From the NCBI GenBank assembly GCA_003282985.1, contig QBYE01000002.1, forward strand, positions 32,399 through 96,398: a stretch of 64,000 nt of DNA, given 5' to 3'. The notes under the pieces were generated by a model that did no database searches, was not told the origin of the DNA, and saw only the letters and a program-made list of their open reading frames with translations. Position numbers and translations under genes: made by a program. This stretch comes from Pelagibacteraceae bacterium AG-325-E08 (lineage in GTDB: Bacteria; Pseudomonadota; Alphaproteobacteria; Pelagibacterales; Pelagibacteraceae). Each line of letters opens with the position of its first letter. Position 1 is the stretch's first letter. Shown one piece after another: positions 5,195-28,373 of the stretch.

Positions 5195-6176
5195 GAAAAT
5201 TTGTATAGTTTATACTCACCATAAATTAGGTGATTTAATTTGGCAACTACCATATATAAAGGCTATCAGTGATCACCATGATCAAAATGTTGATTTAGTT
5301 GTTAGAAAAAAAACTCAAGCAAAAGATATTTTAAAAGATTTAAATCATATTAATAAGATTCATTATAACGAATTTAGAAAAGGCTTAGCTTATTGGATAG
5401 ATGTCTTTAAATTAAAAAAAATATTTGATTTAGAAAAATATGATCATGTTTACATTTTAGACAAAGTAAACAAACCTGCAATTGCAGCAAAATTAGCTGG
5501 CATCAAAAATATAATTGGACCAGGTTTTAAAAATCAAAAAAAATGGATCACAGTTAAAAATTACTTAGATGAAAAAGATTGGAAATTAAACTATTCAGAG
5601 CAATCACAAAAATTATTAAAGATAAATTCGATTATATTAAACGATAAGTTTCCTGACTTAGAAGTAAATATTGAACGACTTAAAGTAGGTAATGATGATC
5701 TGATGATTGATGGGAAAAAAATAGCATTTGGTGTTGATTCTTTTGAGGATTATAAAATGTGGTTTGAGGAAGATTTTATAAAATTAGCAGACCTTTTGCA
5801 TGAAAAAGGATTGTTTGATTACATATATTTAGTTTGTGGACCAGATAAATCAAATGTTGCCAAAAAAATTATTAATGACTCTGGAAAGAAATATTTTATT
5901 GATTGTTCTAATAAAGATCTAATAGGAGTAATATTAGCTATTAAAAATTCAGCATTTTATATAGGTAATAACTCTGGTCCTTTAAATTTATCTGCTGCTT
6001 TAGGTGTTAAGACTTTTGGTTTAATTGCTAACGATCCAGTGAGCGAATTGAAATACAGTAAAATAACACCAATAACACCTCAAGACTACAGAGATGATAT
6101 TTGGACTCGAAATAGAGAAGGAATGAAAAAACTTAAACCCGATGAAGTTTTTAACAAAATTATTAACAACTTATAA
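5187..6176 (+). CDS. glycosyltransferase family 9 (heptosyltransferase-like)
   Basis: HHKLGDLIWQLPYIKAI start; IGNNSGPLNLSAALGVKTFGL C-terminal motif. Confidence 0.8.
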   Translation: MNKKICIVYTHHKLGDLIWQLPYIKAISDHHDQNVDLVVRKKTQAKDILKDLNHINKIHYNEFRKGLAYWIDVFKLKKIFDLEKYDHVYILDKVNKPAIAAKLAGIKNIIGPGFKNQKKWITVKNYLDEKDWKLNYSEQSQKLLKINSIILNDKFPDLEVNIERLKVGNDDLMIDGKKIAFGVDSFEDYKMWFEEDFIKLADLLHEKGLFDYIYLVCGPDKSNVAKKIINDSGKKYFIDCSNKDLIGVILAIKNSAFYIGNNSGPLNLSAALGVKTFGLIANDPVSELKYSKITPITPQDYRDDIWTRNREGMKKLKPDEVFNKIINNL

Positions 6177-6205
6177 AAAAAGCCCCCTGAGGGAGGGGGC
6201 TTTAT
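6175..6205. terminator. bidirectional intrinsic terminator between convergent GT9 and amtB
   Basis: AAAGCCCCCT GAGGG AGGGGGCTTT perfect stem with A-run on the left and T-run on the right. Confidence 0.9.
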
Positions 6206-6231
6206 TGTTTAACTAACTAAAGAGAGAGTTT

Positions 6232-6285
6232 AAGGGACCCTACGATGAGTAATCGCGGAGATACACAGAGAGCGTAGAATCCCTT
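6232..6285 (-). ncRNA. candidate structured element in the amtB 3' UTR / possible 3'UTR-derived sRNA
   Basis: 13-bp helix 6232-6244/6273-6285 that is continuous only on the minus strand (G-U wobbles there; C-A mismatches on plus); CU-rich 28-nt loop; followed by the strong terminator. Confidence 0.45.
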
Positions 6286-6297
6286 TATTGTTAACAA

Positions 6298-7599
6298 TTA
6301 GTCACGTATTGCATATGCAATAACGCCTGTTTCCGTAACATCTGTACCTTTAGTTTCAGCCTCTTTACTTAGTCTGATACCAATTGTAGATTTCATGATT
6401 GACCATACAATTAAAGCAACCACAAAAACGAAAATGTTAATCGAAAGCACACCTAATAATTGAGTTCCAAATGAAGTATCTGGATTTGTAATCGGCACAG
6501 CCAATGTACCCCAAATACCAGCAAATAAGTGAGCGGGTATTGCTCCTACTACATCATCAATTTTTAATGAGAATAGAAGTTTAGTACCATAAACTACGAT
6601 TACACCACCAACTGCACCAATTAAAATTGCTGCTAATGGTGAAGGCATTAATGGCTCAGCAGTAATTGCAACTAATCCACCAATACAACCATTTAACATT
6701 TGAACAACATCTGTTTTTCCAAAGTTCAATCTTGTAACAGTTGCTGCAGCCATAACGCCACCTGCTCCTGCTAAGAAAGTATTTAGAAATATTGTTGAAA
6801 CAGCGATTGCATCATCAGCTGTACCAATAGCTAATTGAGAACCACCATTAAATCCAAACCAACCTAACCATAGAATAAATACTCCTACGGTTACTAATGG
6901 AATTGAAGATGCAGCGAAGGGTTTTAACGGCGCTGGAGCACCAGACTTAGTAAATCTACCAAGTCTTGGACCTAACATTAAAGCACCTGCTAAAGCTGCT
7001 GCTCCACCAGTTGAGTGTACTAATGTTGATCCAGCAAAATCTGAGAAACCAGCAGCAGCTAACCAGCCACCACCCCACTGCCAACCCATTACGATCGGGT
7101 AGATAATTCCTGATAAAATTGCTGCAAATAAAAAGAATGGCCAAAGCTTAATTCTTTCTGCTAAAGTTCCTGATACAATAGATACTGTTGTTGCACAGAA
7201 AACCATCTGAAAATACCAATCTGATCCATCTGCATAACCTGTATCAACTGCACTAGAGTCTGACCATGGAATAAAACTTCCGATATATCCACCTTCTGGA
7301 ATTCCATAAGCTAGATTATAACCGAACATCCAGAACATAATTCCAGAGATTGATATTAAACCTATATTTTTTGCACAGATAACAGATACACTTTTAGATG
7401 TAACCATTCCAGATTCTAACATTGCAAATCCACACGCCATAAAGAAGACGAGGAAACCACAAATTAAAAATAGCAAGGTATTAAATATAAAACCTATTTC
7501 AGCAGAAACTGTTGTCTCCGCCATACCTGCACTACTCATATTTAATAGAAACATTAAACTCATGAGTGGCAGACTTATTTTTTTTATTAATTTAGTCAT
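6298..7599 (-). CDS. amtB: ammonium transporter
   Basis: Amt-family signatures (GLPARL-like membrane core, STGGAAALAGALMLGPR, HLFAGIWGTLAV). Confidence 0.95.
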   Translation of the reverse strand: MTKLIKKISLPLMSLMFLLNMSSAGMAETTVSAEIGFIFNTLLFLICGFLVFFMACGFAMLESGMVTSKSVSVICAKNIGLISISGIMFWMFGYNLAYGIPEGGYIGSFIPWSDSSAVDTGYADGSDWYFQMVFCATTVSIVSGTLAERIKLWPFFLFAAILSGIIYPIVMGWQWGGGWLAAAGFSDFAGSTLVHSTGGAAALAGALMLGPRLGRFTKSGAPAPLKPFAASSIPLVTVGVFILWLGWFGFNGGSQLAIGTADDAIAVSTIFLNTFLAGAGGVMAAATVTRLNFGKTDVVQMLNGCIGGLVAITAEPLMPSPLAAILIGAVGGVIVVYGTKLLFSLKIDDVVGAIPAHLFAGIWGTLAVPITNPDTSFGTQLLGVLSINIFVFVVALIVWSIMKSTIGIRLSKEAETKGTDVTETGVIAYAIRD

Positions 7600-7735: not shown

Positions 7736-8011
7736 TTATTTGTTGAATACTTCTTTTAAAGCTTTTGCTGGTAAGAATTTTACCTTTTGTGAAGCAGCAA
7801 TTTGGATCTGCTCACCAGTTCTAGGATTTCTTCCAACTCTAGCTTTTCTTTTAGCCACTTTATAAGTACCAAATCCAGCAATTTTTACTGAATCATCGCC
7901 TTTTAAAGCGTCCAAAATAGTGTTGGTAATAGTGTCAAAAGTTCTTTCAGCATCAGCTTTGCTCAAATTTAAAGCTCCAGAAAGCTTGACAATTAATTGT
8001 TTTTTATTCAT
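7736..8011 (-). CDS. hup: HU family DNA-binding protein
   Basis: GFGTYKVAKRKARVGRNPRTGEQIQI signature. Confidence 0.95.
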   Translation of the reverse strand: MNKKQLIVKLSGALNLSKADAERTFDTITNTILDALKGDDSVKIAGFGTYKVAKRKARVGRNPRTGEQIQIAASQKVKFLPAKALKEVFNK

Positions 8012-27333: not shown

Positions 27334-28305
27334 TTACTTTATGTAACCTAAAGCTTTAAGCTGTGCAGTCATTTCAGTAAGCATTTCTTCCATTTGCTTA
27401 CCCCATTCATCAGCACCAACTACACTTGAGTCATCAAGTCCAATTTCAGTTAAGAAATTTTTGTAATAATTGTGACTCATAGCTTTCATCATTCCAGCTT
27501 CTAATTCTTTTACTCTTGCAGCTGGAGCTCCTTTTTTAGTTACAAATCCTCTAACAGTAGATAAAGAAACAGGTATACCTAGTTCTTTTGCTGTTGGAGA
27601 GTCTCCAATTTTAGCCATTCTATTATTTGCTAATACAACAGAAACACATAAAGTTCCGTCATTAATTTCTGTCAATGCTTCACCTAAATTTAAAACACCT
27701 ACATCAATATCTCCTTTGACTAAGTTTGTTTTAATTGGTGCTACACCTTTGTAGGCAACAATAGTTGGATCTTTTAATCCACCTTTTTTTGTGAAAGCAA
27801 TTGCGCTAACATCATCAATACCACCAACGTGAGTTGTTCCGTATTTAAGTGATTTTGATTTTTGAACGCTAATAAATTTTTTAGCATCTTTGATGTCAGA
27901 TTTACAGTTAACAACAAATAATTGTGGGTCATCAGTACCTCTAGCTAGAGGTTGCATGTCGCTAATTTTAACCTTAGTTTTTCCTAAGGCCATAGAAACA
28001 GCATGACCAGTAGTCCATGTTAGAGTGTGTTGACCATCAGCTGGTAAGCTCATCATATAATCCATAGAAACAGCTCCACCACCACCTTTTTTGTTAACTA
28101 ATTGCATGTCTTGTTTAAGAACTCTTCTTGCTCTTAAAAGCATCATTCTAGTAGTAACGTCAGTACCACCACCAAATCCAGCGTGAGTAATTGCTTGTAT
28201 AGCACCATCTGCTCTTGCAGATACAGTCATTAAAGGTATTGCTATAACAAAAAATTCAGTCACAAAGAATGCAGCGGCTAAGAAAAGTTTAAAACTTTTT
28301 TTCAT
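27334..28305 (-). CDS. tctC: TctC/Bug-family solute-binding protein
   Basis: Signal peptide, HAGFGGGTDVTTRMML, QLVNKKGGGGAVSMDYM. Confidence 0.85.
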   Translation of the reverse strand: MKKSFKLFLAAAFFVTEFFVIAIPLMTVSARADGAIQAITHAGFGGGTDVTTRMMLLRARRVLKQDMQLVNKKGGGGAVSMDYMMSLPADGQHTLTWTTGHAVSMALGKTKVKISDMQPLARGTDDPQLFVVNCKSDIKDAKKFISVQKSKSLKYGTTHVGGIDDVSAIAFTKKGGLKDPTIVAYKGVAPIKTNLVKGDIDVGVLNLGEALTEINDGTLCVSVVLANNRMAKIGDSPTAKELGIPVSLSTVRGFVTKKGAPAARVKELEAGMMKAMSHNYYKNFLTEIGLDDSSVVGADEWGKQMEEMLTEMTAQLKALGYIK

Positions 28306-28373
28306 TATTTCCCTCTTTGGTTAATTTATAATTAAATATTTAAGCATAATCTGTTACAAAGTTTAAGAACAAA

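Follow-up and report, generated by a model that had tools for sequence, protein, structure and literature searches.

SAR11 bacteria are among the ocean's most abundant cells and regulate nitrogen use and proteorhodopsin (PR) with very few regulators. To our knowledge, SAR11 is without a PII/NtrBC circuit. We analyzed a 64,000-nt stretch of a SAR11 (Pelagibacteraceae) genome, hereafter the window, in which the minus-strand 3′UTR of the ammonium transporter gene amtB (6175-6298) comprises a hairpin with covarying arms, a CU-rich linker that stays unpaired, and an intrinsic terminator. What would such an RNA do behind amtB? The encoded AmtB shares 98% identity with its counterpart in the single-cell genome AG-343-L02. 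Gene order is hupA, amtB, and then a convergent glycosyltransferase-9 gene, and the hupA-amtB order is identical in HTCC1062 (SAR11_0817-0818; PMC2704228). The features of the locus are as follows.

7736-8011, minus strand: hupA
6298..7599, minus strand: amtB, ammonium transporter of 433 aa (Pfam Ammonium_transp, E 5e-99), with the element in its 3′UTR
6287..6298, minus strand: palindrome ATTGTTAACAAT, overlapping the amtB stop codon (6298-6300), with paired changes in relatives
6273..6285, minus strand: 5′ arm of the 13-bp hairpin, RNA AAGGGAUUCUACG
6245..6272, minus strand: hairpin loop of 28 nt, in which CUCUCU and CUCAU, both conserved, flank a small inner helix (MFE fold, column conservation)
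6232..6244, minus strand: 3′ arm of the 13-bp hairpin, RNA CGUAGGGUCCCUU
6211..6231, minus strand: linker AAACUCUCUCUUUAGUUAGUU, a 21-nt antisense to the PR Shine-Dalgarno (SD) leader (G000:C28:3935-3955)
6179..6203, minus strand: intrinsic terminator with a 10-bp stem and U-tail, usable on both strands and serving the convergent gene too
end at 6176, convergent to amtB: glycosyltransferase-9 gene

In minus-strand RNA, the two arms formed an uninterrupted 13-bp helix that included two U·G pairs. Folding of 6220-6297 on the minus strand gave an MFE of -20.7 kcal/mol (z -4.1), which none of 200 shuffles equaled, while the helix was interrupted on the plus strand (-15.8, z -2.1). The 141-nt minus-strand RNA including the terminator had a z of -5.9. 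The palindrome at the amtB stop takes several forms in relatives (TTGTTAACAA, TTGCATGCAA, TTGCGCAA, TTGCTTGCAA), both sides of which change together. Possible readings are an RNA hairpin and a DNA dyad, the latter serving, for instance, a regulator.

A covariance model built on 13 relatives was searched in 399 same-genus genomes, and the element was present in 158 of them, with one match per genome. In an order-wide sample, only one of 10 genera, its own, was positive. The model starts at the stop codon of AmtB (Y[AS]IRD*) in 91 of 100 loci. Covariation was examined on 100 matches (92 distinct) in an alignment fitted to the model. Among the distinct sequences, 97.5% of the helix cells were paired and double-sided changes occurred in 11 of the 13 pairs. 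The covariation score was 0.499; shuffles gave 0.280 (the observed score was reached by 0/500), and slid controls did not exceed 0.18. When 14 sequences were aligned with MAFFT, without fitting to the model, 10 of this helix's 13 pairs again showed double changes. On the minus strand, the non-Watson-Crick helix cells comprised 103 G·U and 5 A·C. Since G·U exceeds A·C by 103 to 5, selection acts on the amtB-strand RNA, and on the alignment evidence the functional strand is fixed as the amtB transcript.

The first-pass annotation had placed the arms at exactly these positions and described the helix as confined to the minus strand. It had also read the two U-G positions, C-A on plus, as a sign of function in the amtB transcript, and this asymmetry extends to the relatives. 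The strong terminator that it noted behind the element is the stem described above, and the covariance search to which it tied its reading, with absence of conservation or compensatory change as the refuting outcome, came out in its favor. A plus-strand feature, either a small ORF (MSNRGDTQRA) or a plus-strand RNA behind the SD-like AAAGAGAGAG, appears highly improbable. The plus strand resembles the PR leader and offers a plausibly spaced ATG, but its helix cells would be A·C where those of the minus strand are G·U, and its fold is broken. The small ORF was rejected as a candidate, its frame being broken in relatives (L016: ATG AGT AAT CTT TGA).

In four genomes (G006, G294, G122, and G137; loci L085, L088, L089, and L093), a second AmtB-like C-terminus lies close by, suggesting tandem amtB copies. 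This second gene has its own CU-rich 3′UTR and terminator (TATCTCTCAATAT...). These four rows were given no weight because the 3′UTR had been taken from the second AmtB-like gene, and the conclusions were unchanged once G122 and G137 were removed. As in 3′UTR-derived sRNAs, the element lies between stop codon and terminator, on the sense strand, with compensatory changes in its structure. It is almost certainly a functional structured RNA.

Among the most conserved parts of the element is the linker that follows the hairpin, UCUCUCUC..AGUUAGUUAA. When the element was searched as DNA, a second site appeared in many relatives, namely a 21-mer located 5′ of a gene assigned as rhodopsin by Pfam Bac_rhodopsin. 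The PR leader reads AACUAACUAAAGAGGGAGUUUUUU-AUG. Over 21 nt, one G·U included, the linker is reverse-complementary to this leader. The two can form 21 contiguous base pairs spanning the SD, the extended complementarity expected of an antisense translation blocker. The duplex had an energy of -29.9 kcal/mol; within the window, the strongest of 64 gene starts reached -18.1 and the strongest of 6390 60-mers -19.8. The match continues past the SD into AACUAAC. We also searched the genome for targets by sequence pattern, with wobble allowed and the reversed pattern as control. Apart from the element's own complement, the PR leader was the sole zero-mismatch partner genome-wide; the remaining sites had 3 mismatches each and were about as common as with the reversed pattern. 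Conversely, the 23-nt core of the PR leader as query against the window found the element best (-29.9 vs -23.5), while a longer leader region was less specific (-32.2 vs -29.4 for the next best). Some linker bases are able to pair weakly elsewhere within the RNA. Pairing of the linker to the amtB stop region was rejected as its main role, at just -8.1 kcal/mol with wobbles included.

A reading in which the hairpin protects the 3′ end of amtB mRNA or marks a processing site, and no other mRNA is affected, is favored by the stable covarying hairpin right behind the stop codon and ahead of the terminator. It leaves the near-invariant unpaired linker and loop and the 21-nt match to a single leader unexplained, and we regard it as quite unlikely.

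Pairing with the PR leader recurred among relatives. Of the 80 distinct linkers, 73 had PR in first place among 65 leaders, and in the 62 genomes having both sequences the median z against shuffled UTRs was -2.95 (46/62 below -2). Coevolution of leader and linker, examined by swapping leader variants between genomes, was not significant (5582/40320 permutations as good); one case, CUCCCUCUU/AAGAGGGAG vs CUCCCUCA/UGAGGGAG, was suggestive. Genomes in which PR went undetected, such as G242 (94% complete), can carry the element too, and the purine-rich PR leader pairs easily with pyrimidine tracts in general. Taken together, we lean towards PR as the main target. The first-pass annotation had called both linker and loop CU-rich and anti-SD-like; CUCUCU occurs in both, and the linker is the antisense of the PR SD leader. 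It had suggested target prediction for the loop; here a specific candidate target, the PR leader, can be named for the linker, with a TctC-type leader second. Its proposal of a 3′UTR-derived regulatory RNA on a nitrogen-stress gene likewise survives in layout, covariation, anti-SD linker, and terminator, with the amendment that function probably centres on the linker and not on the loop.

The candidate second target is the following.

28303..28325, minus strand: TTAACCAAAGAGGGAAATAATG, covering the leader and the start codon of the gene at 27334-28305 for a TctC-type receptor (Pfam TctC); duplex with the linker -17.4 kcal/mol

This gene bears on a broader alternative, in which the CU-rich loop, linker, and terminator loop together lower the translation of several mRNAs with AGAGGGA-type sites, PR being one. 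The CUCUCU stretches of hairpin loop and linker, together with CCUCCCUC of the terminator, would suit such a general anti-SD RNA, as would the leader AACTAACTTAAGAGGGAA of a TRAP (DctP-like) receptor gene in G027 and G366. Congeners without a model match have different amtB 3′UTRs, many of which retain only the CU part, as a shorter anti-leader or anti-SD stretch. This stretch forms 14 contiguous pairs in G035 (CUCCCUCUUUGGUU) and 15 pairs with a bulge in G008 and G049 (CUCCCUCUUGGUUAG), and in G037, G328, and G354 it reads CUCCCUCA(U), facing the leader AAUGAGGGAG. In these hairpin-less lineages PR often ranks 1-3, other leaders often equal or surpass it, and a competitor met frequently is the leader of the TctC-type receptor gene, which has the same AAGAGGGA core. 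Such stretches fit a PR-directed RNA and a broader anti-SD RNA alike. Against the broader alternative, PR is a clear outlier in its own genome and in most hairpin-bearing relatives, and its match goes beyond the SD. The PR leader motif is nearly restricted to the start sites of PR and TctC, in line with a PR-directed RNA. We consider the general anti-SD role unlikely, albeit the most credible of the alternatives to a PR-directed RNA.

Some further observations were made on these loci. The motif AACTAACT/TTAACC plus AAGAGGGA is common to the leaders of PR, the DctP-like genes (L299 and L300; G027 and G366), and the TctC-type gene of the window; it may be a common translational leader or a common RNA target. 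Five model-negative loci (L132, L134, L137, L143, and L146 of G330, G217, G113, G199, and G337) have other hairpins behind amtB with CUCC/CUCAU loops (e.g. the GGGACCTTTTGAACCTCCGCTCCTGTGATCGGTCGAAAGGTCTC region); it is possible that these descend from the first hairpin as diverged homologues.

The position of the pairing region in the PR transcript was examined in G424, where the PR gene has its start codon at 529690 and matches up to 530448. Table 2 of PMC5069720 lists PB7211_669, a bacteriorhodopsin, with start 529616 and end 530457, and the paper places it tenth among HTCC7211 start sites. Because this end agrees with the G424 reading, G424 appears to be HTCC7211. Position 529616 sits 74 nt 5′ of the PR start codon and out of frame; this position therefore probably marks the transcription start mapped for PR, which would put the pairing region within the PR mRNA leader. 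Immediately 5′ of the PR leader motif, and probably within the 5′UTR, an inverted repeat, TAGTTTATATAAACTA (or GTTTAAATTTAAAC), is conserved (L266, HTCC7211 529616-529690, and other PR leaders).

An Hfq-dependent sRNA presupposes a host that encodes Hfq. Neither TIGR02383 nor PF17209 found Hfq in ten Pelagibacter genomes (G000, G338, G424, G012, G195, G158, G029, G440, G443, and G444), and control genomes were positive. SAR11 may thus be without Hfq, and the long linker-PR pairing would then have to act unaided. An interaction that does without Hfq would be expected to require a long, unbroken duplex of this kind.

Under the PR-directed reading, amtB would be induced upon nitrogen limitation and its 3′UTR tail made with it. 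Either processing would set the tail free as a small RNA or the tail would act inside the mRNA, with hairpin and terminator shielding the RNA and framing the exposed linker. The linker would pair with the PR leader and mask the SD GAGGGAG, so that translation of PR, a membrane protein, would be lowered; the mRNA of the TctC-type binding protein is a possible second target. We judge it slightly more probable than not that the element is an Hfq-independent 3′UTR-derived antisense RNA, predicted to lower PR, and perhaps the TctC binding protein too, upon amtB induction. The fuller claim, that the amtB 3′UTR is a dedicated trans-acting RNA coupling nitrogen stress to the light-driven proton pump through a 21-bp duplex over the PR ribosome-binding site, seems to us evenly balanced on the sequence comparisons made here. 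If true, nitrogen stress may turn down this pump, and long-duplex, Hfq-independent regulation would operate within a streamlined genome. The predicted RNA has a named target and is also carried by the genome matching cultured HTCC7211, which makes post-transcriptional control of PR directly testable.

Our literature search returned nothing on an amtB 3′UTR RNA or on control of PR translation in SAR11. GlnZ is an enterobacterial, Hfq-dependent sRNA derived from the 3′UTR of glnA. Like GlnZ, the element places a hairpin-linker-terminator RNA at the 3′ end of a nitrogen-stress gene and would tie nitrogen status to another pathway. Unlike GlnZ, which follows glnA and needs Hfq, it follows amtB in genomes where no Hfq was detected, and its predicted target is a light-driven proton pump.

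Conserved structured RNAs in intergenic regions of Ca. Pelagibacter ubique were described by Meyer et al. 2009 (PMC2704228). The element resembles them as a conserved structured Pelagibacter RNA; the hupA-amtB gap among their listed regions is 5′ of amtB, and the searched passages of that paper refer neither to an amtB 3′UTR RNA nor to proteorhodopsin. Rfam at gathering cut-offs matched no family in the whole window, and a relaxed search of 6100-6400 gave sub-threshold matches only. The alpha-r14/NfeR1 model (RF02344) scored 18.1 bits on the element against a gathering cut-off of 58.8. The alpha-r14 hallmark of three hairpins, each with an unpaired CCUCCUCCC, was not found; CUCUCU occupies loop and linker here, and CCUCCCUC the terminator. 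NfeR1 of Sinorhizobium meliloti is described as an Hfq-independent, nitrogen-related anti-SD sRNA of Alphaproteobacteria (PMC10746234). The element shares with it, as described there, the alphaproteobacterial host, the nitrogen link, unpaired anti-SD motifs, stems of variable sequence, and, here as predictions, pairing with a translation-initiation region and independence from Hfq. NfeR1 has its own gene and promoter and an ultraconserved CCUCCUCCC in three hairpins (PMC10746234), whereas the element lies in the amtB 3′UTR and carries CUCUCU-type stretches with a long, leader-specific match.
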